Assembly (NCBI RefSeq): GCF_964204865.1
Contig: NC_135254.1
Span: forward strand, 15,939,001 to 16,003,000
Direction of reading: 5' to 3'
DNA length: 64,000 bases
Source of the DNA: Styela clava
Taxonomy: Eukaryota; Chordata; Ascidiacea; Stolidobranchia; Styelidae
Below are positions 9,196 to 64,000 of this stretch, one piece after another (within the stretch, counting starts at the first letter, position 1; each line of letters starts with the position of its first letter). A program made the position numbers and the translations under genes. The notes under the pieces are model-generated. The model worked only from the letters and a program-made list of their open reading frames with translations, did not search any database and was not told the DNA's origin.

Positions 9196-9417
9196 TGGCT
9201 CCCATGTCGCCTGTCCTTTTGTCTTGTCTGCTGGTTCACCCTCATAACTATCTCTGTTCTCCTTGGCTGCTGCTCTCACCTGTTACTCCGCGGCTATTTT
9301 TGCTCACTCCAATGCTGTCTTCCATTTTCTTTTCATTTCTGCTCTCTTTGTACTTCCTTTCCCCTCGACCGTCTGCATTGCCTGCTGACCCACGCCCACA
9401 ACCTACAACTCAATCTA

Positions 9418-36718: not shown

Positions 36719-37281
36719 TAAAACCGGATTGAAACACATTTAATTCGATACAATTAAGCAGTTGACGGCACTGTACTGCATTTCAATTGCATGTGCATGT
36801 TTATGGTATAATTTGTATGAAGCACGAGTGTACGAATCGCTATATTATGGTGTCTATAACAGTAAAATGTTATATGTTAATATTTTAGTTTTAATTTAAA
36901 TCTTCATACGAATTATTTCGTGAATCGCTTCGTTGTCGATGAAAATTCGAGATGTTATCAGCTGTTCATGTCCTTTCTCTATGAAGTCTTTCATAATTAT
37001 AAATGTTACAATGATCAATTTACTTTATTTGGTCTTGTGAACTCATATATATTATACTAATAAAAGTGAAAATATATGTCTTATGGCAAGTACATATATA
37101 TATATGTATGTGCAATTTAAAACGTATTTCAAATTTTTCACAAAATGTGAAGTTCATTTAATCATGGAAACATTAGTTCTTGATATTTTTGAGTTTTGAA
37201 TAATGGCTTTCCAGTGTGGATTCAATACGAATGCGAGGAAAACACGCCAAGACGATGAAATCGTGTAGAAATGGGCTACCA
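36719..37281. other. 3' flank of sulfotransferase-like gene 1
   Basis: AT-rich 3' region with an AATAAA at 37059-37064 and an AT-rich simple tract near 37090. No gene. Confidence 0.4.
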
Positions 37282-37865
37282 CAGCGATTCCCAAACTTTA
37301 GGTTCGTGCGGCGCTAAATTATCAGCGACTTACACGAAAAATAATTGCTGCCTTCAAATATAATTCAATTTTGTGATCGTTAATGTGTAACTTTATGTCT
37401 TTTAAAGTTTGTAAACATATTTCGATCTGTCTAATAAGAAATAAAGGAAAAAGATCAAGACTGCTTCTTTATCTCTGACTGATTTTCCTTTAAAATACTA
37501 AAACATCACTCATGTTTGCTAAACTCTGTTCGGAAGATAAAGAAACTTCAGCTCGCAAAATAGCGAGTGCAAAAAGTAGTGCACCCCTCAATTATTCCGT
37601 AACAATCACATAACAATACTGTAAAGGCGAACTCTATGATGACAAAAAGTAAGCGGCAGAAAAACGTAAAATTTATTATTAAAATTTATTGATTCATATA
37701 CACAGCGTTTAAAATAAGAAACAATAGATCAAATATAATAATAACATTATGTATACAATAAATATCCAATCATATTAGTTATGTTCAACACAGGTCTGAT
37801 AATTTTCAAGGCGCACTTGCAAATCGCGCACTAGTGCGCCGCGGCGCACCCTTTCAAAACCGCTG
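37282..37865. mobile_element. hAT-type MITE, 584 bp
   Basis: Left end CAGCGATTCCCAAACTTTAG and right end CTTTCAAAACCGCTG are inverted relatives, each followed inward by a GCGGCGC patch. Flanks ggctacca (37274-37281) and ggccacga (37866-37873) agree at 6 of 8 positions, so the duplication has decayed or the boundary is slightly off. Confidence 0.65.
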
Positions 37866-38357
37866 GGCCACGAGGTGTACGACAAGACTCGAAAACACGA
37901 TAGTCAATAGATTTCAATCAAACAATCGTTTTTTGTTAGCCATTCTGACACACTATGAAAGCACAATGAGTAATCGAAAAGAGTTTATTTGCAACTACTA
38001 TCTAGCAGGGTTATCAACTGTGCTGGGACTAGCATGGGTTCCCTAAGCCTAGGACAATTTGGAAAGTCGATGTTAAAGGATGTTACTTTGTGCAGATTCC
38101 TCTTGAAAAAGGAAATCTGTATTTTGGCAAAAATGAAATTGGAGGCTTCAAAGTATAGGCTATTGCTGACATCTGTAACATATTCGGTTCATCGCCAAAA
38201 TTAATTAGGCAAAGTGATAAGTTCTGTTTGGTGTCTAAATATACACATACATCATCGAACCGGCCACACTACCATAGGAATTTTCGTTTTCTATCACAAT
38301 ACGTTTCTTGACCCAACGCATCCTCTGTTTACCTTTCTTTAAAAAGTCGGTCGGAAC

Positions 38358-38628
38358 CAATGTTCCCTCTAATTTTTTGTAGTATGCGCATAAAGTTTGG
38401 TGTGTGCACACTTTTTTGGAAATGACTTATATTTGTGCAAAAACCTATGAAGAAATTTTGGGGTTCCAACCGGGGAATGGGTGGGTCAACAACAAACTTT
38501 GTCAACCTGCCAACCGAGAACATTGTTACATTACATCGAAATACGTCTTTGCACTGTAAATCTATGCGTGTGCGCAGCCCCTGAAAACTGTGTGCGCGCG
38601 CACACTTTAGACTTTAGAGGGAACACTG
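38358..38628. mobile_element. hAT-type MITE with perfect 8-bp TSD, 271 bp
   Basis: CAATGTTCCCTCTAA at the left mirrors TTTAGAGGGAACACTG at the right. Identical flanks gtcggaac lie at 38350-38357 and 38629-38636. Alternating TGTGCGC/GCGCGCACAC text inside both ends extends the inverted repeat. No coding capacity. Confidence 0.9.
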
Positions 38629-38636
38629 GTCGGAAC

Positions 38637-39696
38637 TGATCAATATTTACACCGATCGTAGTACCAATATACTGTGTTGAAATGTCGCAATACGCTACTG
38701 ATTGTAGAAATACCTATATTTTCCTGGCAGTGTTCAATAGGGCTGATTTCTAGGCGACGGTACCGAGGCACCCACAGGCTTATGGTTTACTAATCGTGAT
38801 AAGGCAATTTCAGTTTCAGACGCTTTTTCGCATATATATCATGTGTAATGCCATATAATGTTTGTGATGGCATGTGCTTGTTAATTTTATCCAAATATTA
38901 AAAGACTATAAGTCGTAAAATAATGATGAGCTAATTAATAATGCATAAAGTATAATATGGAAAACTATATTTATCGTATGTATGACATGACTCGTCAATT
39001 ATTATTATTAGTAATAGTTTATTTGGTCAACATTGTAAGGTAAGACAAATCATGATGCACAGATATATATATATATATGTTTATTTGCAATCAATACCTA
39101 TTTTTAAGGTAAGATTTTTTATAAAGCAATTACGTTTGAAATATAGGCCAACTTAATTTCTTTGGCCTCACCATTTGTGCGAAAATGCGAAATGGTTACG
39201 AGCAAAACCTCTCAGATTTATGTGAACGAAGATTCAGATATTCATGCTGTTCTGTATACAGATTTAGAGAGGAGTTGATCGATACTTTACTATGCCCAGT
39301 AGTAACGTGTTAATCGTTTTTAAAGAATCGAGGATCACGCAGAATTGCTTCTAATTCATTTTAATTGACGTAATATGAATCGATTTGGAGTTCTAAAACT
39401 TACATCCTCAATAGTCAATGTTTAACAGCGGTTTCGCATCGAATTAATTGGGTACAATATTCTCAAGAAAAGTAGGTTAAACCTTTCAAGTAGAACAACA
39501 TACAGATTTAGGAGGTTTGTTGATCTTTTCATCTTCCGAATTCAAGCATTCCGATTCGTATCACTATTTGGAAGATGCTAGTAAAATGTCGACTCAATTA
39601 ACTAAATTTTACTGTACAACTGCGCATGTTATATGTCATTAAATTATACGTTCCGTTCATAGAGCTAGATGTTGTAGCGATTAGGTCTGATCAGCC
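38637..39696. other. spacer between the two sulfotransferase paralogues
   Basis: AT-rich with an (AT)n tract near 39063-39079. No exon or element end is recognised. Confidence 0.45.
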
Positions 39697-41224
39697 ATGA
39701 AAATAATTGTAGCAGGATTCCCTAAAACAGGGACAAAGTCAATGGATGAAGCGTTGACACAGCTTGGGTACAAAGTTTATGGGCACACCGAAAATTTACT
39801 TATATTGGAAAAAGAATGGACCAAGGTCTTCTACGAAGGTGCAACAATAGAAGATTTTCGAAAAATGTACGAGGACGTTGACGCGGTGTCGGACGTACCC
39901 GCATGTTATTTCTGGGAAGAAATTTTGTGGGCTTTTCCTGACTCAAAGGTCTAACTTGCCTATAAAAATCTTATCCGTAGCCTATTACAAAAATCTTTAA
40001 GTAGATGAAGTTAGTCACTGGGCAAAAATAATGCCAGGGATAGCTAACATCGAAAATCGGTGATGTTTGTATACATGATTAACTTCTGTAAATGGAAAAA
40101 TTGGCCCTAATGCTTTATGAAAAATTGTGGTGTTCAAAATCGAAACTTTACTCAAATTTGTTATTGAAGTTGTTGAGCACTATTGTAAAATTGTGGATTT
40201 GCTCATGTTTTATATATATACACCAAAGAGAAACTGATAATTGTATTCACGTCAGTAATCAAGTATCACAACGTCTAGTGTATCGACAATAATGAATTAT
40301 TACTATTTGAAATGATTTTTCAGATAATATTCATGAGAAGAAAAAACGAGGATGAATGGTTTAACAGTTTGAAAAATCAAATAGAAAATTTTCATAAGAA
40401 TTTTGCAATAAGACTGTTGAAAACTACTTCTCCAACTCAGTGGAGAATAGAAAAAAACGTTGCTTCTCCAACAGGTTAATATTCTTTATGATTTGTGATT
40501 TACCTTGATTTTATTCTGTGACTTGGAGGTACCTGACAAGAAAAAGATCGAGATTCTTTGCTCTATCGAATTTAAAAACAAATATCTTAACAAATCTTTA
40601 CCTAAATCTTTACAATAACAATTTTAGCACGTTTGGCTCTGGGCTATGTTCCACCGGCAATATGGTCGAACAACATCCGAATCAACGAAGCTTTAGCAAA
40701 AAAGAAATACAGAGCTCACAATGCACACGTTCTTCAGGTACATTTATGTTGCATCGTACTAAAATCCCCTTAATTTCAAGAATAAGCGTAGTTCACATAA
40801 CACTATTAAACGTGTGTGAAATCCTAATTAAGTTAACGAATGTAACTGATGAAATAATTGAGATTGTATGATTTATCGACAAGCTAATATGATTTATATT
40901 TTCAAACAGAACGCACCTAAGGATCAACTGCTAATATATAACGTTTCTGAAGGCTGGGAACCTCTGTGTGCATTTTTGAAAGTTCCTGTTCCCAACTCTC
41001 CATTTCCACATAAAAACGTGAGAGGCAATATTAGCAAGGAATGGTTGGCAACAGATCCATTGTTGATAAAAATGCAACGTGAAATGTATTTTTCAATTTC
41101 AGCAGCCGCAATTTTATTGTCTTATGGTATTTATAAAGTTGTAAAGAATCCTCCATCAGCGGCATTGTCTTCAGGTTACACTTGGTTAAAAGATGCATTT
41201 ATGAACTTGTTGTCTAAGAGTTGA
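39697..41224 (+). CDS. Sulfotransfer_4-like protein 2, membrane-anchored
   Basis: Exons 39697-39948, 40324-40474, 40628-40737 and 40910-41224 give 275 residues. The first two exon lengths (252 and 151 nt) equal those of the upstream paralogue, so this is a tandem duplicate. The cofactor loop VAGFPKTGTKSMDEAL keeps a basic residue (K10), and the second loop MRRKNEDEWFNS keeps Arg and Ser where paralogue 1 has lost them. This copy is therefore the better candidate for an active PAPS-dependent enzyme. AKKKYRAHNAHV and GWEPLCAFLKVPVP mark the C-terminal half, and residues about 230-249 form a membrane segment near the end. The exon 1 donor (AAG|gtctaa) is weak. A poly(A) signal lies at 41452. Confidence 0.8.
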
Positions 41225-45600: not shown

Positions 45601-47628
45601 AATATTGCATTCTACAATCATGTATACCAGGTCAATGCTATATGCTTCTTCATAATACCGCAATATTTTCCGACCTCTTTAGTTCACAAATAAACACCTG
45701 CACATCGACCGGAGTTTAAATACTCGACTGAGGCAACTACAAATCTGGAATTCACACTAAATGAAATTTATTTCAGTATTTACTCCAATTTTATGAACGA
45801 CATTATATATAAAAGTATTTAAGAAATATATATTTAAATACAAACCTTCATTCTTGTCAGATTGGCGTAGTATAGATCCCCATAGTAGTAATTAAATGCA
45901 GAATAGAACGCGTCAGCAGGATTTCTCAAAATCGTTATGTACCTAAAACCAGTACAATTTCGAGAATAAAAATGGTTTTCCAAACGACAAAAAAAGGAAA
46001 AAAAATTGTGACGTTTAAACTTTTAAAACACATGATATATATATATATATATGTAATCAGGTATGTACGATACCTAGACTTTTCTGGAATTTCCAATTGA
46101 AATTTCCAAATTTTTGTTGCATTGAAAAAATCATAAATAACTTGCAATAGTATCAGTAGAAAATTTACTTTGTTCCTGGTGGCATCAATTTTTTAAAAGC
46201 TGTTGCATTAAACCTCAAGTGACCTGCAACAACATTTGGCTTAATATCGGATGATCCAATTTGAGTTTTATTCTCATTGAGTAGAAATTTGGAGTCAAAA
46301 TGTCCTGGGTATCCTCCAATGAACGGTAATGGAAACATGTTCTGCTGCAGAAAAAATTTACAAAATGATTTTATTTTTCGTTGTCAAATAAAAAATTTTG
46401 ATGTTAAAATTTTTTTATTCCTCCACTAGTCGTACCTTTTTTCCACGAAACATCCACAAATGTTTGATCAGGATACCAAATACGCTGCTTGATGCCGTTT
46501 TGTGAGTTTTTACATAAACTATTTTCTTATGAGGTGAGCAACGTTTCAATAGTTTATTTATGACAGGATACAATTGAGTGAGAGAATTCCACTGCTGTTT
46601 TGATGTTGTCAAAGTTGTTGTCGAGCTTGATGAAGTTTTCACTGTTGTTGGTTTCCCCTAATAAAAATAGGATGATATTTAATTAGTACGCTTAATATGA
46701 AAATCTTGGAGTTATTTTTGATATGTGATTGTTTGTCAAAAAACGATTTGAACGTTAGTATCAGTTACAGAATGCACAGAACGATATTAAGAAAATGTTG
46801 AAGATATTCAATTTTGGGCGCATGTTCACTAAACGGCGCAAGTTCTTCTATTTGGCGTGGCACAACCATTTTTGCAAATGGTATTCCTAACCCCCACCTG
46901 GCTCTGTTATCCAAAGAATATGTCACTACGACCTCACAATCACGTCAAAGATCTTGCCAAAAGTATGGCTACGATCGCCCAAAGTGGTATCTTCGTCAAC
47001 GATAACGAACTCACTAACGCCTGCGATCTCTGTCATATCGGAATCGTTACGACGAGAAAACGAGAGAAATATCTTGCTCGATTTCGGGTGATCGTTTGCG
47101 CGTCCTGGATGACGGTTAGTATAGTTTGGGGGCCTTACTACGTTACTGTGATGTCGTAGTGACGTAGTTTTTGAATGACGTAATCAGGTGGGGGTTAGGA
47201 ATAACATATGCAAAAATGGTTGTGCCACGCCAACTAGAAATAATTAAGTCGTTTTGTGAACATGGCCCCAATTTTGTTATAGGATAGGTACATGAAATGT
47301 TGATTATCACTATAGCATCATTAGAACATTTTTTAACACAATTTATCTATTAATAAAGATAAAAGAACAGATCCATTGAATGGAATTATTTGTAACAATA
47401 TTTGAAGGAGAATAATTTAAGAGCGTGAAACACTTTCCACTACTTACTTACCTCTAATTCAGTGTGAGGCGTTGCTTCAATTTTAATATAATTACTCGTC
47501 GGAGCGATAAAATCGTGATATGTTTGAACATTGCGTAAAGATGGAGACATGGTGTTCCTGGCCCAAATGTATGCCACCACAAAAATTGCCGGGATTACTA
47601 TATAAATTGCCTTTACTTCAAAACCCAT
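42632..47628 (-). CDS. galactose 3-O-sulfotransferase-like enzyme (Gal3ST family)
   Basis: Minus-strand exons 47628-47452, 46657-46436, 46344-46169, 45942-45846, 45446-45331, 45204-45057, 44767-44651 and 42937-42632 join in phase to 452 residues, a usual length for the family. It is a type II Golgi protein: a short cytosolic tail, signal-anchor at about 7-24, then a Ser/Thr-rich stem (60-90). The PAPS-binding loop YVKTHKTASSSV (107-118) and the 3'-phosphate motif ILRNPADAFYS with R198 and S206 are intact. SDYYLESLVLLK and ALYDYFNRTLWKKI are further Gal3ST signatures. The expected reaction is sulfation of the 3-OH of galactose on glycolipid (cerebroside type) or glycoprotein chains; the acceptor cannot be told. 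Introns hold a MITE (46816-47268) and a hAT element (43320-44393). Confidence 0.85.
43320..44393. mobile_element. hAT-type element with perfect TSD, carrying a nested MITE
   Basis: Starts CAGTATGTTCCCCAGC and ends GGGAAATCACTG, with G-rich sub-terminal tracts. Flanks ggctctgt are identical at 43312-43319 and 44394-44401. It sits in the last intron of the Gal3ST-like gene. Inside it, 44205-44297 is a second small inverted-repeat element (GAGGGGTTAAAC to GTTTAGAACCCCTC). No transposase. Confidence 0.85.
46035..46052. repeat. (AT)n microsatellite in Gal3ST-like intron 3
   Basis: An uninterrupted alternating AT tract of about 18 bp in the intron between exons 3 and 4 of the Gal3ST-like gene. Confidence 0.8.
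46816..47268. mobile_element. MITE with long (about 85 bp) terminal inverted repeats
   Basis: The first 85 bases and the last 85 bases are reverse complements with few mismatches. Landmarks are CATGTTCAC, GGCGTGGCACAACCATTTTT and CCTAACCCCCACCTG. Flanks caatttt (46809-46815 and 47269-47275) form a 7-bp duplication, 8 bp if the boundary shifts by one. The 453-bp element lies in intron 1 of the Gal3ST-like gene. Superfamily is uncertain. Internal frames of 63 and 100 codons have no known domain. Confidence 0.85.
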
Positions 47629-48559
47629 CTTGTACTTGAAAAAGTTGTTGTTGCTGAATTCTACATGTTATTACTAATAGTAATGCATTACTGCTGCACA
47701 AAAAAAACGAAATGCTGACAGCTTACATGACAATCCAGCCATGTATCACCTACAACTAGCATATGTAGGAATACACATAATATATTTCTCCTGATGCGCA
47801 TAAAAGCCTTTCTATCACCGTGTGATATATATATATGTATAGCGCAAAACAGAACTAACGATCATTTATAAAACCAACGTTGACGCAACTAATTTATTCC
47901 GTGAAACCATTTAAACAGAGCAAGCTTCGAAAGAAATCCTTCTTAAATCGAACTGCTCTGAATACATCGATGCACACACACATATACGAAAGATTACAAC
48001 GTGTTACGTTCATCGGCTGCTAAACCCCCCCAGGCAATAGCGAAATTAATGTTATGAAATTTGAGATTGTGCCCCTATCAGTTGATAATCCCAATCACCT
48101 GAAATATCTCGCAGGATAACTGATAACACCATTTTAGCCCCTCAATTTTGGAGTTTATGTAACAATGCAATTTCCCACTTATTTTTTTGTTTTGTTTCGA
48201 AATGTCAATACGCGCACAAGTGACGTCACAAAAGCTGTTTTGGCAAGATGGATAGGAAAATATGCGCGAGTTCATTAGCTGATTTTCCTTTTGAACGCAG
48301 AAAAACTCGATTTTTTTTTTGAATTTGTTTAGACTCGTGCGCACAAATTTCAACCAGACTAAATTTAGACTAGGCCACAAATGGATCTGCACAAACCAGA
48401 TATATATTTAGTGGCCCGTGTTATAAAAGAATTAAGAACTCCTGTTCTATTTCAACCCGCTAACAGACAGAATCACATAACGTTTTGTAATATGCTATAT
48501 TTAATACATATAGTTTGTATTCTTAACAAAAAAGAAAAGAAAAAGATATGTCGGATTTA
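47629..48559. other. spacer between the Gal3ST-like and lectin-like genes
   Basis: Both flanking genes run on the minus strand, so this holds the 5' flank of the Gal3ST-like gene and the 3' region of the lectin-like gene. A short AT tract lies near 47826. No canonical minus-strand AATAAA was noticed close to the lectin-like stop. Confidence 0.45.
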
Positions 48560-51500
48560 TCAAACATTTCTGAACATCATTTTCGTTTCTTTCATAGGAT
48601 AATATCGACTATCACCACCGATCCTGGGCCACGTAGCCCAGAAATCGACAGGAAGTCTTTCATACTTGTAGTCTCCATTTTCGATATAACTCAGAGACTT
48701 ATAAGGACCATTCAAATTTGACAAGCCACAGTTTTCTTTTCCGAACCACCATCCACCTTTATATGTTTTAGAGCAAACATCGTCGCCTCCCGCACGAAAT
48801 TTATATCCGACGTCACACATCAGGGAATCTCCTGCATTTCCATAGAATTGTGATGAATCAACGTTAAGTTTGAATTTGTTTTCAGGTGAATCCAACGAGA
48901 ACCAACTGTAGAATGAATTGTAGATATTATTTTTCTCTAAATTTATTACCTCTTGAATACTTTTACTACTTTAACATCCACATCTTTTGATACTTTTACC
49001 TTTATACTTTGATGTGACTTGAAAGTCACAAATCTGCCTGTCAAAATGACCGTCGCTAAAAGATGCTCCAGAAATGGATTAATCTTTTTTTTTATTGCGT
49101 TGTCGACTACTATTTGAAGTTGATTATCGCACAAGTTATGAATCATAGCTTTTAAATTTTTTGGAATAAGGGATAAGGGCAAATGTATTAAAATCAACAC
49201 ATATACTTTTTATACAAAAACTCCAACATAAGCTTTAACAATATGACATAACGATTCGTTGGTTCATTTTGTATTCAAAGAGTGCGGTGCGACATCACAA
49301 AAAGTCCAGTCTCTTTGAATAGTGGTGCAGCGAGGCTCATGTTGATAATTTGTTTCTCTTCGTGCGCCGTACCGGAATTTGCTTGAGATTGTTTATTTGA
49401 ATTCTAATCATTGACTTCTATAGCCTGAGGATATACGATATTTAACAACACTTCATATAAGAATTGTAATATAGGTTCGAGTATATACGATATTCGATTT
49501 AAATTAAAAGAAACTTTTGTCTGAAACGTAAATTTAAGACACCAGTTTTATAGAGCAACTATCATACACTCTAACATTTATGCATGTATTTTGTGGTCTA
49601 CTTCAGGGTTTTAAACAAATATTTAAATTTTTAATTGTATTTTTGAATTCAGTTTGAGTATATATACCACTTTCGACTAGGGTTGGGCGTTTTCGAATAC
49701 CTGATGATTTCAGAATCGAATCGAATATTTTTTCGAATCGAATCCCGAATACCTGGAAGATATCTAATTGTATGTGACTCTTTTTAGAAAAATGCCCAGC
49801 CCTACTTACGACTCAATATTTAGGCATGTGAAGCATCATTATATTTCACCAAAACTTATCTGAAATGTTCAATATTCGTCATAATCGTTTGTTGATCTTT
49901 TTGGAATGTATGTTAAATATTTTACTTTAAAATAAAGTCAACTTACTAATATAATGCATATCTTTTCAAACCACCCCAATCCGTTAGTTCGATGAGTAGT
50001 TCATTATGTCTTCCGTTTGTAAGTTCATAGATTTTCTGTAAACCTGTTCATCAGTAAAAATATTCAACTAAGCTAAAAATATCAGAACTCAATGTTTAGT
50101 GATTGATAACAATTTCCACTTGGGCCTAATTATTTACTTTTTCTGTACTTGGAACTAGTGCCAACAGTGAGTACGATAACGTGCAACTGATCACTGTAAT
50201 ATAAATGGAACTTCTTCGTTACTATGTCAACAAACGGAACTAATTCCATTTCATTTCACACTATTTTTGGCACTTTATCGCTCACCACTCAATAAAGTCT
50301 TATAAGTATTATTTATTTTTATAAATTTTCGTATGAAACGCTCAAGTTGAGTATTTTTTGAGTGAATTGAATATTTTTAGGTTTCGGCAAAGATGTGTAA
50401 CGTTTTCCTTTTATTTTTCGATACCAAGAAGAAGAGGTTTGGCCTGACCTTTCCTCTAGATTCGCTGCTGTACACTTTTCCTAAAAAGCTTTCTGTGGTC
50501 AGCGACCTGTTATATACAAAAGTTTGATGCAAAAGTATTATTATCAAATATATATATACCGAGCCACATTTCTCCGGTTAGAACTCCAAATCCTTCAACA
50601 TATTTTTCATAATCAACATCAAAATCAACCTGAGTCTCTTGCTCAAATCGCCGCTGGAATACCTTCAAAATATGTAAATCAAAAAATTTCGAACATTATC
50701 CCTCTATATGACGATTGTTGTGCACGCGTTGGGCTCGGCTTAGGAAACAAGAAAGCAATGCTAAAATATGTGGACACGGAAGCTAAAACAAAGTATAGTA
50801 AGGTATCGGTATATGATCTTTCACAGCACGGGTACTGAACGCGACGAGCGAGAAACCGCCACAAGTTGCGCAAATATTTTTTTTATTTTGATGACAACAT
50901 CACAGACAAAAACAGATCCCATAATATTCACAGAAATTTGCGAAATAAATGAAAGTCATATCTTTCTCGTGACAACAACAGTTTTTACCACCGAAAATTT
51001 CAAAGCAATTGGTCCAGTATTTGGAGACGAAAGGGATATTTTCATATCAATATGAAAAACGAGAATATCGGTCAGAGACCGAAGACTTATCGATCCAAAG
51101 TTAGGGGCTCTTACAAAAACAGCGCTCTTACTCCATAGTGACACCTTGTGTCCGATCACTAATTGATCAATAACTCGCTAATTATACGACATAACTTCCC
51201 CAAAAGTAATAGGCATTTGGTCCGAGATATGATGAATGCAACTGCAGAATCTGGAGCAGATTCAATCTTGTTTTCGTGAGATATCGCGTGCATCTAACAG
51301 ACATACACACAGACAGACAGAAAAATCCCCTTCAACATACTTACCGATTAAAATCGATAAGCCATCATCCTAACAACAACAATATACCACCAAATTGATC
51401 TATAAGGTCCACTTCGTGTAGAACAAGATTACATGCACTACATATATATATATATATATATAATACTTTATGATTGAAAGTATTATATTATACATATACA

Positions 51501-54500
51501 AATCCAAGCTAAATAATTTTGTGTAACACAGAATTTAACACTACTTACGACCCAGCCATCACCAAAATCGGGATCCGTATAGCAACAAACTTCATAACAA
51601 GAGGTTCTATGTTTTGTGCATATAATGTAAATTCCCGCTTGACCCTCTTTAGCGAGGTCCATATCAGTGACGTCAGAACAGCTGGTAGGGAGACCTGTCA
51701 TGTAAATCGGAAGTCACTGAGCAAACAAGTTTCATGAACCGTAATATTTCCATTGATATTTTTATATGATCGATACCTTACGTTAAATTTACAGTGTTTG
51801 AAAAGTAATTTTTTGACTAATTGAGATTCAATATGGAAAAACTTCACAAGTGCTCATGCAGCGAAACACAGTAAAAGTAAAACAGCGGGATTTCGTAGTG
51901 GTGCTTAAAACACAAACAGCATTTAATCCAACCTTCCTCACAAAGTGTTCCTCTGTATCCTACTGTACAGGTACACGAGAATTCATTCACTCCATCGATG
52001 CAGATTCCTCCGTTTTGACATGGATTCGATGAACAATCATCAATATCTGGAAACGCAATCAATGCGATAGTTCTATGAAGCATTCGCTCAACTTATATGT
52101 CTAGGAAAGCTATACAGAAAATGGCTATTCGACTATAGCATTGCATTACCAGGACAAAGTACCATTGGTACTACATCGCGATAGATGCCGTTTGCACAGA
52201 GAAGTTACCCATTATAGTACATGGTTTTCATGACAATCTCGACTGCTTTCGTTTTCACGAATCTCCAATTTTTCAATGAACTTTTATAACGAGTGTTTTT
52301 AAACAATGTCAATCAATGTCCTTTTTATGTCGTCATTTCACCGTATATTTACTACCATATTCAGGAAACTTTTTCAGTTCGCTTATTGCTATGTCGTGGT
52401 GGTAAGACTATCGCCGATTGCAGGGATCTTATCACAATTCGATGCTGTCTTTCAGAAATCCACATGATATGCAGTCAAAAAACAATCTTTCGAACGAATT
52501 CGGATGGTTATTATAGTATATGGTTATTGACGCGCGAGGAAACTCTATACTTATATATATATATATATATAGTTACGGTATACATACTAAATTCGCATTG
52601 TCGTCCAGTATATCCCTCAAGACAAGTGCACAAGAAATCGTTGTCTCCTACGGTTGTACAAAAGCCTCCGTTGCTGCATGTGAAAGCATCACAATTGACT
52701 GTTATCTCTGCCAAGATAATAAATCAATCAGACGTGCTTATTATAAAGTATTTGTTTGGGTACTGATCCTTCAATAACCCCTAATTTATGAGGTGAAATT
52801 TTGCATTTTAAAGTTCCATATTTTCAATACTTCAAAATTCCTGGAATTCAGGCTTCACGTCGGTAATGAACGGTCACAGCTAAATATAGAGCCCTCTGTC
52901 GTATGCATTACAATTACAACTGTTGGTAACTTTTAAAAATACTCCAGCTGAACATTGTTAGTCACTTATTTTATATCGTTAGGTTCATACTCACTGTCAC
53001 ACGATTCCACAAAATTCTGAAATACGCAATAATTTAGCTCTGGATCAAAAGCACAATTGTCTTGGCAGGTTATTTTCACGACTTCACCTGTATGGAATAT
53101 TAAAATGATGTAATCGAGGTAGGTATTGTTATATTTCTTCTTCTAGATGGGGTGGGCATATTTTCTCTCAACGTTTCTCATAACAACGGTTTGTAGTTGT
53201 ATTAAGTGTTGTAGTTGTATTAAGTGACCCCAAGAAAAATTTATCTCATTTTATTTCTGAAACATTTGAGTCAGAAAAAGTAAATAAAAGTATCTATGAA
53301 AGGTTGAACCTGATCAAATTTATATTCCCTGAAAAATCAAGGAAAAAATGGGCAGATCTTATTTTTTTAGAGAGTGATTTTAATTGGAATAAACTGTATA
53401 TGGATATCTTTTATTGTACTATTGAAACTAAATTGCAATCTTTTCATGTAAAAATGTTCCATGGTGCCATAGTACTAAACGATAGATTGTATAAATTTAA
53501 ACTTGTTTCATCAGAGTCATGTGATTTCTGTCATTCAAATGTTGAAACTACCAGCCACCTTTTCTATGAATGTATAGTTGTTCAACAGTTTTGGGAAACA
53601 CTAAACATGTGGATATACTCAAAAACAGAGATTAATTTTAACTTTTCAAAGAGAGATTGCTTGTTGGGATATAGTTATAATTTTTATAATAAATTGTGTA
53701 ACTGTATACTTCTTGTTGCCCGGTTTTATCTATATCGTTGTAAGATACAGAAAAAGAAACCACTGTTTAATGTTTTTACCTCATATCTGTATGAAGTGAG
53801 GAAAATTGAACGGTTCATTGCATATAAAAAATGGAAAATGAAGAAACATGATCAAAAATGGAAAATTTTATGATACATTTACTGATTATTTTATATGATG
53901 AACTGTGTATTGTCCATGATTAGTGATTGTTGTAGATGTATCGATCTACTGTGTTTCATATATTAATAAATATATACAAGAAGAAAAAAAAACGGTTTGT
54001 AGTTTGACTACTCTAAAGTAAATTTTTTTGAAGGTTTCATAATTTCGAATTAGTATATGGTTGAAAATCCTCCAACTCCATAATTGCTCTGTTGCGTATT
54101 CATTCAGACTGGGCCGAACGCAGGGAGTTAAAATTGGGTGTGGTGCTTACAATCTTTCCAACGGAATTTCTACTTGTATCTAAACATTTATTTGTACAAA
54201 GATTCGCGAAGATCGATATCGAAGCAACTCACCGTTTTCGCACCAATAGAATACCGAAGAACAATATGGAGCATCCAATTTGAAAACTGTGTTTTCCTCG
54301 TATTGGTTACATGTCGTGATAACTGAATATAAAGGATAATTAAAGATTACATATTTACCCCGGGGGAGAGTAAAGTTGATAAGACGGCATAACTATATAT
54401 ATATATATATATGACGAACCACGATCTCTCGTCCGGTTACCAGTTCGTGTCCGGTATGGGATAAGTTAGTCAGTTATTTGTTCCAGATTCATGGACATGA

Positions 54501-57500
54501 AGGTGGAGTAAGCTGGAACCGACCAGAGGTTACATCAACCATCTCACAACGTATTCATAGGCATTCATATGCTCAAATTGCCAACAATATTACAAGGAAA
54601 GTATATTCATTCATAAATCCAAAAAAATTGTTTTATCTACGCGTTGAATAACACATATAGGAATAATTACTTATTTTGAACTGTTTATTTTTATGAATTC
54701 TTCAATCTTCATATTTGAGCATAGACTTTTAACAATTTTATTCCTCATTCGTTAATGACTTTAGTGTTACAAGCGCCGAAAATAACAACAAATGTGTCCG
54801 CATTTCCTCCCTGCTATTTTATTAAACATACTGAAAATAAGTTTGTATATATATAGACTACATTCAGATGCTAGATCATCTTGAGGAGAGAACTATCAAT
54901 TCTAGCTGCACTTTTATTTCATTCTAGGTTCTATCTATAAATACAAGTATATAACTTACCAGAGCACGTTTCTATGAAATTTTGGAAAATGCATCTTTGC
55001 GTTGTAGGGTCGTACGCGCAATTTAAGGGGCATGTATGTTTCACAAGTGCACCTGAATGGAAATTTGATTACTTTTCTCGATTTATGACAAAGTAATGGG
55101 TTATTCTGGTAAATTGAAGCTGGTATCATCATATTCAAAATAATTGTTTCTCCCAGAAAATACAGATCAATCGAAATAAGTTTGATGGCATATTACTCCC
55201 GCTCAAGATTTTTTTTTTTTTTATTGTTTTCGACGTTGTTGTAATTTGAAATTCCATCCGTATACTTGCATTATCTATTATTTTTAAAAGATCAATTCGT
55301 TCGTGCAACTTAACGATAGTCATTTGGCAACACAGACGTTGCACCTTTGAAGAGTCAGGTTGGAGATATTACGCTGCGTACGTCATACTGTACAAGATTA
55401 AGAAAACGCAGAGCAGAGATAGATGTGCGGATTGTTCGATTGTTTTTCTCTTGTTTGAAATAGGGTGGCAATATTTATGAGACTATATTTATGAACTTAC
55501 CTTCTTCACAAGTGTAATACTCTGAAGTACAAGTGTCTCTAGGCAGCGAAATAACGCCGTCTGTAGTTAGTTGGTCACATTCATCGATTTCTTGAAAAGC
55601 TGTAATGACTGCAATAAAAGAACGATAACATGTACTGTTTTTATTAAATATGTATTTGTTGTTTTATAATATATATAATTGGTTACGTTATATTTTTGGG
55701 CAATTTTTTTAGTAAAAGGGCCGCATGCGGCAAGTCAAAACTATGTGAGAGTCGCATAATTTTTTTTTAAATTAATAATATTAGAGCTCATTAAATCATT
55801 TTGAATTGTAACTGTTACATTGATACTAATTTGGGATATGCGTGTAGTTTGTGTGCGACGCGAAATCGTCGTCTGTTTAGCACGAGCAATATTTCACCAA
55901 ACTAGCTTCAGTGGTTGCATCGGATTCCTTGCCAACTTATATAATATCACAGATTTATACTGTCCTTCCAGTAATAATTTAATTTCATTTACATTCATTT
56001 CCTTACAGCTGATTTACAAGGGTAGTCTCGTACGAAGTTTTTGTGATTCGTTTCATGGTGCCGTTTAATATTGCTGACTTAGTAGCTTATGAGAGATTAA
56101 GCACAAAGGTTTATTTTCTTGATTAATGAATATTCTTCTTTTTATTCTGACTTGACACCTCTATTCTCCTCTTCGTATTTTCGCTTCTTATACTCTTGAG
56201 GTCATATCGCACCGCAACTGAGACTAACGAGCAAGATACAACGCCGCACGCAGGGACATACATTTGACCATTGTTACGTGCAAGATTTATCACTTGACTA
56301 ATTTAAAATTCCACGCTACAACTAAATTTTTCATACTAAAATATATTTTGCCTTAATCATTGATGAAAACTTCTTCTACCGCTCATTAATTTAAAAAAAA
56401 TGTTACACTACTGTTTCTTTCAGTTCAATTTGGATAATAATTAATGCTAATGAGAAGAGCCACATAAAAACTCTCGCCGCGGTTTATCCACCGTTGGGCT
56501 GTGCTATCATATTCTGAGTCTAGATTCAGATTCAGATAGTTATTTTCATCGTGCAAGAAACAATGCGGAACAATAAACACACATAAAATTAAAAAAACAA
56601 AAACAGAACACAACAGAATCTATGTATATGCATTATGAAGTCACATATAGAACTGTGAAATTTAAAGTATATACTTACCAGGGCATAACGGGTTAAAATT
56701 TTGAAACGTGCAGCCTTTAGTTTCTGGATTGTATGCTTGATATGTAGGACATTGTTGTATGGATACTTGAAAATAAATAAGTTGTTTTGTATATTACTAT
56801 ATATATGAGTAATATAGAACTTACTTTAAGTTAATACCAAAGTATTTAGAAAGTAACCAAAACATCTTTTCCATCTGTAATTAGCGATAAAAACATAATT
56901 CTGTTGTTCGTTCATTAAAAACTTATTCTAAATTGAAGTATAACTTAAAATGAATGAATGTAAATAAAAAAAATAGTATATTCGTTTGCCAATGGTTCAA
57001 AAATTTACGGAATTTAATGTTTAGACTTTGGAATATGAATATGTTATACATATTTTCTGATATCATTAATTCAATGCCTTTTCGAGATGATTAAAGTTCA
57101 TTTTTGTTTTTTTCTACACTTACATGAATCTGTACAGTCATAATAGATTGTCATACATTGGTCTTCATGCAATACGTATACATCATCAGAATGTCTGCAA
57201 TCGGAGATAGCTATCAAAAAATAAAATAAGCAATCATAAAACTTTTTCGTATAAATTGCACAAACTTCCCTTTTTTTTCGATTTCTTTTTTTTTACAAAC
57301 AAGAATTGGATAACTATGAATTAAACTTTCGGTTCCTATGATTTTGAAAACGAAATTATTTTTTTTTATTATGTCTTCACACTTTATATTTACTCAGAGG
57401 AGTCAACCAGGAGTCCTACGACAACAACTTCGGGAAACAATGCACAAGACTGCACGCTAGGAAATCAGAATTCACGTTTTCGTGTGTTCTATATACGAGG

Positions 57501-60500
57501 CTGACATCGGTACGAACCCATAAATAAGTACATCACTGAAACATGATAATAGGATAACAGAGAACGAATTGTGTCTAATTACACCTTCACTAGGAAGGAT
57601 TTGCTATAGCAGTCACTTATTCTTATCAAACCTATCAGATCTCAAATCTAGTCGTCAACTGCAAACTCTCATTCACTACTGTATTTTGATTTTAAGTTCC
57701 ACGAACTGATCTTTGCCGGTAGGCTATTGTTTTGTTATTGTGGCAATTAATTTTCTGTTATTATGCCATGAATGCGCAAAGTAGTCAGTGAGGTTTTAAT
57801 TAATTTCTAGCAGATCAATTATTCGAATTGACCAATCCAAGTGCCCGGCCTACGCATATAATAAAACACAAATAAGGACACATGTAAAAATAAGGAAGTT
57901 TCTTAGAAATAAGGACAAAAAATAAGTCAAAACCTTCGAAATGAGGACAAAACTTAGGAATAAGAACGTTATTGCAGCCCTGCCTATATATAAAGCAACA
58001 TGGGTACATCCTGGGCACAGTTTCATTCCCCCACATTGACGGCATTTCAATATCGTAAAGGGCTAAAATTTTGATCACGTTATAACGTTATGGCACGGAC
58101 AATTATGATTCTTACCATCGCATTCATCCACGTAGTTCTGATAAACACATCGATTAGTTTTTGGATCAAACGCAAAATACAGACCACAATCCATCTTTTC
58201 AATTATTCCTAGGAAAGTATGAAAATGTGTTACAAAGTATATGATTGTACCAGTACTATTATAGATATTTAATATATTTGGTATAAATTTCAAGCCTTTA
58301 AACCTGACTGATTATTCAAATGACTTGTTATATTTTTATTTAAAATTATGTTACAATTTTATTTCACATATAAAACTAATTCTCGACTCATTTAGCAACG
58401 GAAAAAGCATACCATCTATGCATTGATAATAAGTTGAAGAGCATGTCGAATCATAAAAAATTGTACCACTCTCCATCTCTTCGCAATTTTGAATTTCTGT
58501 GAATTATAATATTGATACCTGATATAAATCATTTGAAAACACATCATATGTGAAATAAACACCCATTGTGACGTCAAGCATGCATGCCTTATTTTTTGAA
58601 TGCGTCTAGTCAGAACAATTCCAAAAACGGGATTCATCAAATTCATATTGGGAAAGGATAGGAAATACAAAGTTATTTGTTATTACAAAGTTATGTGACA
58701 ATTTACTGTGACAAGGTGAAAACTCTGGCTTTGATATTCAGAATGGTCTTAAATTAGGTATTTACTTAATTTAATTAATATAATCTTGTATACTAACTCA
58801 CCTGGGCAACCGTCAACAAAATTCTGAAAAACGCACTCATGTTCCGAATTAAATGCTCGCGGGTAGCTGCAATAAACACCAACAGCATTTTCTGTAATTT
58901 AAATAATGTAATCAATGTTTATGTGGGAGTGTTTTGAGAAGGTATATTGAAAAGTGGTTTCACATAAACAGTTGTGGTTATGTTCCTCAAATTGTTCTTA
59001 TATTTTACATTTTGACCCTCTGGCAAAGATCATAATGACTACCGGACAAATTTTTTCGAAAAATATGTTTTAGATATTAGCGCCATTCTGACACTACAAG
59101 ATTTGTTTCGGAAAATCCTTTTTGATTATTTTATTAAATTACGAATATTATATATATGTATATTATGTATATTCTCACTCATCTGTAACGTTTTTAAAGA
59201 AATTTGTTAGAAGGAAGGTCTCACAGAGTATAAGAGATTCAAATCTGAGCGACATTGCGGTAGACCGAGAGTTGATGAAATTATAAAGAATTATATATGG
59301 TATAGATATAGAATTGCGCGATGGTAATACTAATATTAATTTATACGAGGAATATAGCCGTTCTTTCCAATACGAAGTGGAAAACTGCTACTTAGTGGTA
59401 AATTCCACATAGCTGTCGTTGTTGCTTCGGGAACAGGATATCATATCAGCAACAGATTTGGGGTTAATTGGGTCAAAGATGGGTTCAAAATTCATATACA
59501 AATTTGATTTGGCTCATTCTAAAAGTTGATGGCATATTACCTTTAAAAATCGATGTCGTTTCGTTAAAATAAATTGAATATATAGATTGGTAGTACCCCT
59601 GAATACATTCACTCACTATTTGAACAGCTGATCCCTGTTGTCACATCTGTTCCAATACACCCATCGCAATAGTATGTATACGTGGGACATTTTTCATAGA
59701 ATGGCGTGAAAAATATAGTATCCTCTTTGCCGCAAATCCCATTCAAATAGGCACTTTTTATTCCAAAATCTTGACCGAAAATAAAACCATTGAAAATACT
59801 TGAATTTTTAGGCGAGCAAGGAGTATGGGAATTCTTTTTAACCACTTATTAAAAATTCGGGTTTGCTTAAAGTAAGTCATGAGTAAAAGTGTAGTAGGGC
59901 AAAGAGAAATACACAAGTGTTTTTACTATTTGAGACTAGAGTATTTCAGCTTATTCTACTGCACTTGAAACGATACAAGTGAAGCGTAAAAGGAAAAGCT
60001 CGATAGAAAGGTCCAAACAAGCATGGAACAGGTAACATAGAAATATTCATTCCATGTTGACTTTATAGGTCAATTAAATACCAATTTTTTTTTTAATTTT
60101 ATCGATTTTTGTATCAATATTAGAAATAAGAATAATTGAAAATGTCAAAAATCTGCAGTTGAATTATTTACTACCGTTGAAACAGTTTATTGGATGATTG
60201 TGAATATTTTTTCGATGTTTTTAATTAATTAATTTTAATTAATATTAAACTTTTTTTACTATATTTATTCTGCGAATAACTAAAACTTATGTTTCATGAA
60301 AATAAAATAGAAGCACACGTAACTTACAATCACATACGCCTAATAAAACTGAATTCACACATTGGTATTCCGTATCATACACATATGATTGTGAACAAGC
60401 TTGCTCTTCATACGTTCCACCTAAGGAAAATCAGAAGTTTTGTGTGAATTCAAAAAAGTCGAGATCGTTCAATATTTATGATAAGTCGATTATAACTGCT

Positions 60501-63500
60501 ACCAGAATCGTTGTAACGTTGAAATTGGTAGTCCTGAATACCTACAGTTTAATTTTACTAGATCACTTGTTCACGTGTTCACCAAATCTGAAGAAATATT
60601 TGTATACAAGTGAGGAATCACCAAAGTGTTCAATTTAAATATCATCATCATTGCTATCAAATGGAATCGAGAATTGCAGATATGCCAATATAGGGGTAAT
60701 TGACCATACTCTGCGTTTTCACACTCCCGTGTTTTTAAACACGTTCGCTGAGTAAACTCCGATCTGCACTCCCGCGGCCGCAGAGGTCAATAAGCACACA
60801 GTGTATTGTAATGCTAAATGTTCGTATATTGTAAAGTTGCATGATCGAATTGAAGCTCGATACAAAGAAATATTGCTAAGACTTGTGACCTATTCATTAA
60901 ATTCATATACTATTAATACAAAGGTTAAATAACATTAAAGTCCACAGTTACAATCTACATTCGCAACACCAGAATTAAATACAGAAGAAATTAGCGCGGG
61001 CTAATAAACTACCGTATTTAAATTCTTGCAAGAAATCCCTGTTTTATATACTCACCAGTAGACGGACATTCGTAATAACTTTTTGAGCAAAGGGTTGAAG
61101 CTACCGATCCAGCGGTACAATCATCTGAAAATTCATCTGAAACATCATCTGAAACATTTAAATACAATCCAAAATTAGTAGTTGAATTGCAACTAACATG
61201 TTTTTACTTAAAACACTCGCTTTAACAGAACTACAATTTGCCAGCACAGTCGTGCCAGGAATGAGCTTGTAAAAAGAATAGGCTATAAAAGGAAAAGTTC
61301 CATGACGCCACGAAATGTACTGTCGTTTAAAGTTCATTATGATTACATAACTGTATGGGAACGCGTTAGTTAAAAAAATGGTATTATCGTGGTTCATAAC
61401 GTCAACAAACCGTGTTTTGTGTCTCTGGGTTCGATCTTTCATTAATATATGGATTTAGCCAAACAGCGTGGACGTCGCAAGTCAGAGATCCAGATTAAAC
61501 AGTGCAATGTTCACGGGGAGAATTAAATATCATAAATGCTGTATTTGTAGAGGACACTGAAAATGCATTGTTATTGCTTCAAAAATAAAAGTATGAACAC
61601 CAATACACCCACATTTAAGCGATTATTTTAATACCTGCATTATATTATATATTTCCGTGAGTTGTGAAACACAAAATTAAGAAAGGATAATTTAATATAC
61701 GAGGTAAGGCTAAAAAGAAACGGGACTGACGTCACAGATTGCGCAACATGATTTACCACCGGTAATCAGCACTTTTACAGTGTGGCGTAATATGTGTTCT
61801 TTGTTTAACAGCTGTTTTGACACAATATCGCAATTATTTTTGCCTTAGGTGAATGTGATTAATGGCTTGTTGAAAAAAATTGCTTTGCGAGATCTGATTG
61901 AGTTTTTTGGCGATAGGGGGTTCAATTGCAGAATGACGATTGAGCGAAGAATTAACATTACATTTTGTGTCAAACTCGGAAAAAACGGCGAATGAGACTT
62001 TGCAGATGTTGCGTGATGTTTAAATGGAGATTTTTCCATGTCCAGAACAAGAGCTTTTAAATGGCACAAGCGATTTGTGAAAGGCAGGGAAGATGTTGAG
62101 AATGATCCAAAGTCAGGGAGGCCCTGCACTTCCACAACTGATACCAACATGAAAAGGTTCGGCAGTTGGTTCGCAGTGACCGTCGCTTAACAATTCGCGT
62201 CATTGCCAAAGAAGTTGGGAAGGACAAAGAAACGGTCCGCACCATTTTGGTTGACACTTTGGGAATGCGAAAGGTGTGTGCCAAAATGATGCCAAAGGCT
62301 CTTGAGTTGACTGAGGAGCAGAAAGCTCAACGATTGAATGCATGCCGAGTTGACATGCATTTTTCCAAGTTTGACACAAAATTTAATGTTAATTCTTTGC
62401 TCAATCATCATTCTGCAATTGAACCCCATATCACCAAAAAACTCAATCAGACCTCGCACAGAATTTTTTTTCAACAAGCAATTTATCACATTCACTTATG
62501 GATCCTGAAAAGCAAAAATAATTGCGATATTGTGTTAAAACAGCCGTTAAACAAAGAACACATGTTACGCCACACTGCAAAAGTGTTGATTACCGATGGT
62601 TAATCGTGTTGCGCAATCTGTGACGTCAGACCCGTTTCATTTTAGGCGCACCTCGCACGTCGGGGTCACCAAAATTGATGGGCAAAAGTTTTGTCCCAAA
62701 ATCGTTAACTCAAGTTATCAACCTGAGGATAGCCGACGGTAATACAGAATAGACAGTCTTAAATATGGTATGTAGCAATTATGTACTTCATCATATGAAA
62801 TACCACAAACCCTATTCAGGAATATACTCATTAAAAGAAAACTAGCATGGTATAAACTCCAACAGAAGAATTGTTGTAATTTTATTCTATATTCTATAAA
62901 GTTGATGCTGTTTTACTTACCACTGAGGCATGAAAGGCCACCACCTTTATCGATTTCGAACAATCGGTAGTACACACATCCATTGACATCTGGGTCAAAC
63001 GCCAAATTTTCATCGCATGCAAATTTTTTTGTAACACCTGCGATAAAATGCGATAAAAAGTATTTTCATATTTCTGCTTTTTAAACATTGAATTGAAATA
63101 TTGAATACTCAATCATTTAGAATCATTGGTACTGTGGCCTTTAAATGGTCGCCATCGTTAGTGGACCTTTTATTCTATATCCAGGCGAGTCTCAAATGCT
63201 TTAATAAATAACTTACTCTATATAACCTATGCATATCTGAGTTGAAAAATGGTGACCTAGTCGCGGATGATACTGTTGTGAACAAATTACTATTTTGGAT
63301 ACGAAATGGAGTTATGGATTATTTTTTTACTATGTTTTTTGTTGTGAACAAGTCGCTGTTCTGTTAAACTACAGCTGCTTTTAAATTTTAGTGGTGCCGG
63401 TAGAAGATTATTTGTTCTATTTATTCAAACAATTTCTGTGGGCTCTATAGGTTCGTATTCACTTCGATGTTTTGTGTGATAACGTCATCAAAAATAAAAA

Positions 63501-63738
63501 ATCGAAATATCTAAAAGTCACGGATACTCACCATATTACTATACTACTATCGTAGCTGCGTACAATTATATGAATAAATCGTTCGTATTAGAAAAATAAA
63601 TGAGTATATCAGAAAAATATTGATCAATCACAGGCAACAATTAAAACAACTCACTTCCTCTACATTCGTAATATTCTGTAGGGCAGGTACCTACGCCAAA
63701 TTGCCATCCCCAATATTTGACTCCAGAACAACCATCAA
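48560..63738 (-). CDS. CBM14(7+)-EGF(2)-fibrinogen-domain secreted protein (5' incomplete)
   Basis: Twenty minus-strand exons join without a phase break to 787 residues: 63738-63655, 63037-62921, 61148-61056, 60420-60328, 59844-59617, 58891-58802, 58496-58413, 58208-58116, 57210-57124, 56765-56679, 55608-55501, 55052-54960, 54322-54233, 53087-52995, 52707-52588, 52046-51933, 51694-51549, 50662-50560, 50043-49947, 48905-48560. Domain order is seven peritrophin-A/CBM14 repeats, two EGF domains (the second DIDDCSSNPCQNGG, calcium-binding type), then a complete fibrinogen C-terminal domain ending MMFRNV. CBM14 binds chitin or similar polymers and fibrinogen domains often bind acetylated sugars or microbes, so an extracellular lectin or matrix/immune role is inferred. 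The start and signal peptide lie beyond the right edge. Introns carry a LINE fragment, a mariner derivative and a MITE. Confidence 0.85.
49678..49804. mobile_element. 127-bp hAT-type MITE in lectin-like gene intron
   Basis: Ends TAGGGTTGGGCGTTTT and AAAATGCCCAGCCCTA are inverted repeats. Flanks ctttcgac (49670-49677) and cttacgac (49805-49812) match at 7 of 8. The interior is mostly GAATCGAAT-type repeats, like the degenerate sequence near 18980. Confidence 0.75.
51059..51362 (-). repeat. dispersed repeat, copy C (about 300 bp)
   Basis: The minus strand reads like copy B at 33428: TTATCGAT, then a GTCTGTCTG tract, GATATCTCACG, GAATCTGCTCCAGA, CATATCTCGGACCA, GTCTTCGGTCTCTGACCG and ATATTCTCGTTTTTC. 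It lies in the intron between the first and second fibrinogen-domain exons. Its ends coincide with those of copy B, which defines the unit. Confidence 0.7.
51442..51462. repeat. (AT)n microsatellite
   Basis: About 21 bp of uninterrupted alternating AT in the intron downstream of the first fibrinogen-domain exon. Confidence 0.8.
51933..52707 (-). other. two EGF-like domains, one exon each
   Basis: Exon 52707-52588 encodes a six-cysteine EGF (CDAFTCSNGGFC ... CTCLEGYTGRQC). Exon 52046-51933 encodes a second that starts DIDDC and has the C-x-D-G-x4-F-x-C-x-C pattern of calcium-binding, hydroxylatable EGFs. Both exons are phase 1-1, so they can be skipped or duplicated without a frameshift. The donor after the second is weak (GAAG|gttgga). 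An (AT)n tract (52552-52571) lies just 16 nt beyond the first exon's donor. Confidence 0.85.
53199..53990 (+). mobile_element. 5'-truncated LINE fragment (L1/Tx1-like) with TSD
   Basis: Inserted antisense into the intron between the last A exon (52995-53087) and B exon 54233. The 14-bp duplication aacggtttgtagtt is at 53185-53198 and 53991-54004, and the 3' end is A-rich. An 18-bp stretch at the 5' junction is directly doubled (53191-53226). The 189-codon frame 53304-53873 ends the ORF2 protein, with the zinc knuckle C73-x2-C76-x8-H85-x4-C90 and QQFWE. It is the same family as the copy at 4709. Confidence 0.85.
54394..54412. repeat. (AT)n microsatellite
   Basis: About 19 bp of alternating AT in an intron of the lectin-like gene. 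Confidence 0.75.
61700..62655. mobile_element. palindromic (foldback) mariner derivative
   Basis: Both ends derive from the same 5' end of a mariner. The left 280 bases (from CGAGGTAAGGCTAAAAAG) and the last 300 bases are inverted copies, including GACGTCACAGATTGCGCAAC and the start of the transposase gene. Between them, 62000-62350 encodes the helix-turn-helix part: WHKRFVKGREDVENDPKSG, then RSDRRLTIRVIA and LGMRKVCAKM. The reading then switches to antisense near 62350. The catalytic DDE domain is absent and the left-arm frame has stops. A TA lies before the left end, not after the right. Confidence 0.8.
62000..62350 (+). pseudogene. mariner transposase N-terminal fragment
   Basis: This is the paired helix-turn-helix DNA-binding region of a Tc1/mariner transposase (SxSRTxAFKWHKRF, EDVENDP.SGRP, then RSDRRLTIRVIA..VG..KETVR.IL). 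Frame shifts separate the two halves. It lacks the DDE catalytic domain and is interrupted by the inverted duplication at its 3' side, so it is not functional. Confidence 0.8.
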
Positions 63739-64000
63739 CTGAATCAATGATTTGACATGATTCATAACACAAAAAATCAACAATTCAAATAAAGGTATTC
63801 TATTCGCAGTGACGGTAATGAAGTAATTCAGTAGAGAAAGCTTATGAAGTGCTGTATGCTTGAAGTAAAATCATTATATTTCCAAAATCATAATTGAGAT
63901 TGTATTTATTTTTCGTGTGCAAACTAAAATGCAATGCAATGCAATCATCACGGGATGGTAAAATTGGGCAATGGGGGCTCTTTTGCAGAAATTAGGTCTA

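Follow-up and report, generated by a model that had tools for sequence, protein, structure and literature searches.

In a 64,000-nucleotide stretch of the Styela clava genome (contig NC_135254.1; G000:C5:15939001-16003000 in the assembly that we searched), hereafter the window, we characterized on the minus strand what looks like one intact gene for a secreted-type protein that combines an array of CBM14 units, two EGF domains and a C-terminal fibrinogen domain (FReD). Twenty exons, named E1 to E20 and extending from position 63738 down to 48560, join into one open frame that ends with a TGA stop codon. The canonical ligand residues of both the CBM14 units and the FReD are lost. On balance, we consider it probable that this is a single gene for a secreted acidic adaptor of a matrix or barrier, built from shuffled phase 1-1 exons, with ligand sites that have diverged. 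The chain of CBM14, EGF and fibrinogen domains, each of them familiar by itself, appears to be new: we found no description of it in the open-licence PMC literature, in agreement with a preliminary description of this DNA that had not recognized the combination as a known family. The papers cited below by PMC number were used as excerpts.

Gene Structure and Domain Organization

The joined frame of E1 to E20 starts with a split codon, followed by 762 complete codons and the TGA. Fourteen exons each encode half of a CBM14 unit, giving seven units that we named D1 to D7; two exons encode one EGF domain each and four encode the FReD. All junctions are GT-AG. E1 to E16 are uniformly in phase 1-1, and the four fibrinogen exons are in phases 1-0, 0-1, 1-2 and 2-stop. 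The exons, in the order of transcription, are as follows.

E1, 63655..63738, minus strand: first half of D1; phase 1 in, phase 1 out; first exon within the window
E2, 62921..63037, minus strand: second half of D1; D1 matches CBM_14 at 3.2e-6
E3, 61056..61148, minus strand: first half of D2, divergent; acceptors at 61136 and 61124 are also in frame; D2 without Pfam match
E4, 60328..60420, minus strand: second half of D2
E5, 59617..59769, minus strand: first half of D3, longer, with two extra cysteines; D3 without Pfam CBM_14 match
E6, 58802..58891, minus strand: second half of D3
E7, 58413..58496, minus strand: first half of D4; D4 matches CBM_14 at 4.8e-11; weak donor GTATGC
E8, 58116..58208, minus strand: second half of D4
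E9, 57124..57210, minus strand: first half of D5; D5 matches CBM_14 at 7.8e-6
E10, 56679..56765, minus strand: second half of D5
E11, 55501..55608, minus strand: first half of D6; D6 matches CBM_14 at 8.9e-9
E12, 54960..55052, minus strand: second half of D6, a unit of seven cysteines
E13, 54233..54322, minus strand: first half of D7; D7 matches CBM_14 at 2.5e-6
E14, 52995..53087, minus strand: second half of D7, a unit of seven cysteines
E15, 52588..52707, minus strand: EGF1
E16, 51933..52046, minus strand: EGF2, presumably of the calcium-binding type; weak donor GTTGGA
E17, 51549..51694, minus strand: fibrinogen domain, part 1
E18, 50560..50662, minus strand: fibrinogen domain, part 2; weak donor GTATAT
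E19, 49947..50043, minus strand: fibrinogen domain, part 3
E20, 48560..48905, minus strand: fibrinogen domain, part 4; TGA at 48562-48560

Counting the leader exon described below, 15 of the 20 introns have the donor GTAAGT or GTGAGT, the others being those of E7, E8, E15, E16 and E18. The GC content is 0.392 in the coding sequence versus 0.326 in the introns, and the composition of the three codon positions is unequal. An ATTAAA hexamer resembling a poly-A signal lies 3' of the stop codon (48500..48505, minus strand). When intron pieces were joined at random with matched exon lengths, none of 5000 such joins was open; they contained 50.5 stops on average and 29 at the minimum. When 50 dinucleotide shuffles of positions 48001-64000 were scored with models of the half-exons, the EGF exons and the FReD, no score exceeded 15.3 bits with the half-exon and EGF models or 7.9 bits with the FReD model. 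With the same models, the real second half-exons scored 48.9-66.0 bits and the FReD exons 61-271 bits. As these models were trained on these very exons, the independent test is provided by Pfam.

In the joined protein, Fibrinogen_C (PF00147; 1.7e-33), CBM_14 (five stretches) and EGF (two domains, 1.6e-18) all exceeded the Pfam cut-off. The Fibrinogen_C match covers profile positions 7-219 of 221 and thus a full-length domain. Neither an Ig nor a collagen domain was matched in the joined protein by Pfam. Tested as single units, five of the seven passed the cut-off for CBM_14 (PF01607), namely D1, D4, D5, D6 and D7; D2 and D3 stayed below detection when tested alone and were assigned solely from their cysteine pattern and exon structure. 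There are six cysteines in D1, D2, D4 and D5, seven in D6 and D7, and eight in D3. EGF2 carries what we take to be a calcium-binding-type N-terminus and an O-glucose-type motif (CxSxPC). The preliminary description had placed a CBM14 array, two EGF domains and a C-terminal fibrinogen domain in one phase-consistent minus-strand frame, and had pointed to the three corresponding Pfam families; every one of these parts was recovered. It had also counted at least seven repeats. Seven stand, five by Pfam and two by cysteines and exons, and the gene's own half-exon models detected no further CBM14 exon in the 20 kb upstream. The number of CBM14 units is probably exactly seven.

The Predicted 5' End of the Gene

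We scanned the 20 kb past the right edge of the window for exons encoding an ATG-initiated peptide with a hydrophobic core, followed by a phase-1 donor. Of five candidates, the one closest to E1 is the only one with a complete GTAAGT donor. This 19-codon exon, G000:C5:16004648-16004591 on the minus strand, lies 1.85 kb before E1 and matches it in phase. Strong-donor candidates were absent from six control 20-kb strands taken from three stretches of the window, and the upstream region itself had one on its opposite strand. Judged from these sequence features, it is likely the first exon of the gene, encoding a signal-peptide-like leader.

With this leader the predicted protein has 782 amino acids, encoded by 21 exons separated by 20 introns in a gene of about 17 kb. 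Residues 20-782 have a calculated mass of 86.1 kDa and a calculated isoelectric point of 4.2. The 782-residue model contains 67 cysteines, one of them within the leader. Upstream beyond the leader and on the same strand, two open reading frames (ORFs), L009:3977-4288 (minus) and L010:5908-6252 (minus), match TIR_2; they are presumably parts of other genes.

Loss of Canonical Ligand Residues

In an alanine scan of human CHIT1, the conserved surface residue Trp465 showed the strongest effect on chitin binding, and Pro451 and Leu454 also ranked high (PMC5459812, PMC4844120). The equivalent position, two residues after Cys5, is occupied by Trp in none of the seven units: it is Phe in D3, D5, D6 and D7, Tyr in D1 and D4, and Asn in D2. 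Five of the seven share the motif C-x-[FY]-Q-N-[FY].

The solved structure closest to the FReD is that of FIBCD1 (3.8e-25), and angiopoietins and tenascins are also among its solved relatives. In FIBCD1, Asp393 and Asp395 are among the residues that coordinate calcium, and Tyr405, His415, Tyr431 and Trp443 form the pocket for the acetyl group, with Ala432 as its base (PMC3908420). In the alignment with FIBCD1, the calcium loop of the Styela FReD is shortened and lacks the DxD that corresponds to Asp393 and Asp395. In the S1 pocket, Tyr405 is retained and His415 is replaced by Gly; no confident alignment was obtained for the equivalents of Tyr431, Ala432 and Trp443. The domain resembles those of FIBCD1, the ficolins and tachylectin 5A in its family membership and in the Tyr405 equivalent, and differs from them by the loss of the two aspartates and the histidine; there is also no collagen domain match.

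These losses were compared with a non-random sample of 40 listed FReD matches of the genome, hand-picked across clusters. The calcium-loop DxD is present in 34 of the 40 exons (32 by script, L061 and L062 by eye; the stricter DxD[ND] was found by script in 25), and a histidine occupies the pocket position in 18 and is absent from 22. Many FReDs of this genome therefore lack the histidine, whereas absence of the calcium motif is uncommon. A tree computed from 47 last exons gives the FReD studied here the longest of all terminal branches (3.97), and its position there is not reliable. Together, the loss of the tryptophan, the calcium aspartates and the pocket histidine weakens the earlier suggestion of a dual-specificity pattern-recognition protein.

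Related Sequences in the Genome

The genome searched comprises 376.6 Mb in 379 contigs. A protein query made of D4-D7, leaving out D1-D3, gave eight matches at E<=0.1, all eight being the gene's own exons. D4-D7 have no paralogue in this search, and no second near-identical copy of the gene was found. The FReD belongs to a large family. Used as a query, with 150 of 190 candidates scored, it found at least 29 matches at E<=0.001; four are its own exons and the other 25 show 29-51% identity. For Fibrinogen_C, where scoring covered 150 of 718 candidates, the genome has at least 161 matches, and contigs C6, C10, C13, C14, C18 and C19 are examples of those that carry tandem clusters. PF01607 gave 28 matches genome-wide at E<=0.001, none of them on C5. 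By eye, among the matches listed, the closest other pair of CBM14 and FReD lies about 99 kb apart on C8.

A CBM14-only array on C16 (G000:C16:15954446-15966741, minus strand) has 15 similar, canonical, Pfam-matched units, all 15 with the Trp, in a pattern search that required Trp and returned the same 15 positions as Pfam, so that units devoid of Trp could escape both. In 12 of these units a phase-1 acceptor lies six residues before Cys4; the script rule found none in the other three. A phase-1 donor was observed for one first-half exon. In the gene described here, the acceptor is likewise six residues before Cys4 in D1, D3, D4, D6 and D7, seven in D2 and four in D5. In both arrays, then, numerous CBM14 units are split by a phase-1 intron at a corresponding mid-domain position, which makes a shared origin of the split unit likely, and the C16 array may be the source or a cousin of the one studied here. 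They differ in the Trp, kept in all Pfam-matched units on C16, and in the absence of any FReD exon from the 50 kb surrounding the C16 array.

The 30 kb examined around a CBM14 cluster on C4 similarly contain no FReD exon. Conversely, 80 kb around four FReD clusters (two on C6, one each on C16 and C10) yielded no CBM14 or EGF exon, a weak negative, as the search relied on narrow models built from the present gene together with an EGF pattern. Within the window, no further copies were detected with the models of the FReD and the second half-exons (the first-half model was not applied), and a scan of viral contigs with the last-exon ORF revealed no relative.

Interpretation of the Gene and Its Product

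Under the reading that we favor, phase 1-1 exon shuffling probably joined EGF-FReD exons to an array of split CBM14 units, of which this genome contains another example. The resulting disulfide-rich CBM14 rod would tether the molecule to an extracellular matrix or barrier through many weak aromatic or protein contacts. The EGF pair would act as a spacer, partly stiffened by calcium, and the FReD head would bind a protein or a non-acetyl glycan. FReDs of angiopoietins bind proteins. The supernumerary cysteine of D6 could form a disulfide with that of D7, or these cysteines could link separate molecules. A role in the gut or tunic barrier, already raised in the preliminary description, is possible. 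Insect peritrophins likewise carry several CBM14 units in a secreted protein (for insect membranes, see PMC6109156); here, EGF and fibrinogen domains are added and Trp is replaced by Phe, Tyr or Asn.

The protein might alternatively serve in pattern recognition at a barrier in the manner of the VCBPs, its CBM14 array sitting on endogenous gut chitin and its FReD capturing microbes by acetylated or other surface sugars. We regard this as a serious, if rather improbable, explanation. The gut membranes of Ciona have a chitin framework, and VCBP-C, which binds chitin with its C-terminal CBM14, attaches bacteria to beads of chitin (PMC6109156, PMC4757023). Like the VCBPs, the Styela protein would be a secreted protochordate protein in which a recognition domain is coupled to CBM14 (PMC4757023, PMC6109156). 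Five of its seven units score with the CBM14 profile, and FReDs with both the DxD loop and the pocket histidine are frequent in the genome. However, the tryptophan with the strongest effect in CHIT1 is missing from all seven units (PMC5459812), and this particular FReD has neither the calcium aspartates nor the pocket histidine. The architecture differs as well: VCBPs have two V-type Ig domains and one C-terminal CBM14, whereas here a FReD replaces the Ig domains, seven CBM14 units are N-terminal and without the Trp, and two EGF domains separate the array from the FReD.

A function in the egg coat (vitelline coat), or in another form of gamete or cell recognition, with the FReD binding a protein ligand as v-Themis does, appears unlikely. 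In Ciona, the v-Themis proteins of the vitelline coat are fibrinogen-like, and several coat proteins have EGF-like repeats (PMC9265791, PMC7018956). A diverged FReD with an altered sugar site would suit a protein ligand, and v-Themis and v-Themis-like proteins are, like this one, ascidian proteins with a fibrinogen-like domain. However, the excerpts of these papers mention no CBM14 array for v-Themis, and the gene setting appears different: v-Themis genes are nested within intron 1 of an s-Themis gene, which is polycystin-like, but none of 20 ORFs or joined pieces tested with Pfam, which cover part of the window and flanks and include ten from the introns of the present gene, was polycystin-like.

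That two neighboring genes, one encoding only CBM14 units and the other EGF domains and the FReD, share phase and strand by coincidence is in our view very unlikely. Secreted modules are commonly in phase 1-1 and can join by chance, so that phase agreement alone is weak evidence for a single gene. However, the frame is open across the join between 52995 and 52707, where, according to the preliminary description, an internal stop or a separate start would speak against a single gene. The E14-E15 intron (287 bp) contains neither AATAAA nor ATTAAA, one or the other of which occurs in 18 of the remaining 19 introns, the E15-E16 intron being the exception. Eight ATG frames begin in the E14-E15 intron or in E15 and none is leader-like: four have fewer than nine residues, and in the other four the mean hydropathy over nine residues peaks at 0.53. 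In addition, the sole leader exon with a strong donor found upstream precedes the CBM14 array.

We give scarcely any weight to a decaying or unexpressed gene with drifted ligand sites, for which the long FReD branch, the divergence of D2 and D3, the lost canonical residues and the transposon pieces in introns might speak, because all 782 codons are open with no frameshift or stop, splice sites are GT-AG throughout, random joins were never open (0/5000), and each CBM14 and EGF unit keeps at least six cysteines.

Several points weigh against the single-gene adaptor. The donors of E16 (GTTGGA), E18 (GTATAT) and E7 (GTATGC) are clearly weak and deviate from the consensus. The leader was called by a hydrophobicity rule and not by a trained predictor, and under a looser donor rule the control 20-kb stretches gave 4, 2 and 7 hits on the minus strand and 0, 3 and 1 on the plus strand. 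The absence of a hexamer from one short, AT-rich intron is weak evidence, as the E15-E16 intron lacks one too, and the search for a second start covered the E14-E15 intron and E15, leaving aside a separate leader or internal promoter higher up in the introns of the array. That there are no further CBM14-FReD genes is established only as far as close relatives of D4-D7 or the FReD are concerned; PF01607 at E<=0.001 misses the split exons of this very gene, so that other split CBM14-FReD genes could escape. Finally, Phe and Tyr can in principle stack on sugars, and chitin binding is therefore still possible.

Other Features of the Window

Two introns of the gene harbor remnants of mobile elements. 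In the E13-E14 intron, which separates the halves of D7, positions 53184-53870 (plus strand) encode the tail of a reverse transcriptase of a long interspersed nuclear element (zf-RVT, 1.3e-10); a longer ORF with a zf-RVT domain lies at 5050-6099 (plus strand). The E2-E3 intron contains an inverted-repeat element (61700-62655) with two adjacent pairs of arms of 147 and 142 nt that are 90% complementary. Its middle part encodes, on the plus strand, a piece that we take to be mariner-type transposase-like, with no Pfam match.

The downstream neighbor, at about 46160-47630 (minus strand), is a Gal-3-O-sulfotransferase-like gene (PF06990, 2.4e-13). Sulfotransfer_4 exons at 34697, 39691 and 40862, within 34697-41221 (plus strand), probably represent two tandem genes. 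Low-complexity ORFs with repeated RAAKERADTE-like units occupy 8304-9275 (minus strand). Rfam and tRNA scans of the window returned nothing. Elsewhere in the genome, C9 carries one GH6 match that passes the Pfam cut-off, in keeping with a tunicate source; among animals, GH6 is a mark of tunicates.

Implications for Protochordate Recognition Proteins

We tentatively propose, as an idea that may well prove wrong, that the protein represents a new class of chordate barrier proteins, equivalent to the VCBPs but with a FReD as the recognition head. Its N-terminal CBM14 array of a Phe/Tyr type ('CxFQNFVxxC'), with a new polysaccharide or protein specificity, would place this FReD on a host matrix such as gut chitin, the tunic or the egg coat. 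If the gene is real in transcripts and conserved, it would also be a clear-cut example of exon shuffling, because this genome contains plausible sources for it in the form of a CBM14 array with split units and a large FReD family. The combination of CBM14 units devoid of the Trp with a FReD devoid of the calcium aspartates calls for caution in inferring a "chitin-binding lectin" from domain names. Provided that it is borne out by transcripts and conservation, this architecture would represent a second protochordate route, besides the VCBPs, by which CBM14 has been coupled to a recognition domain.

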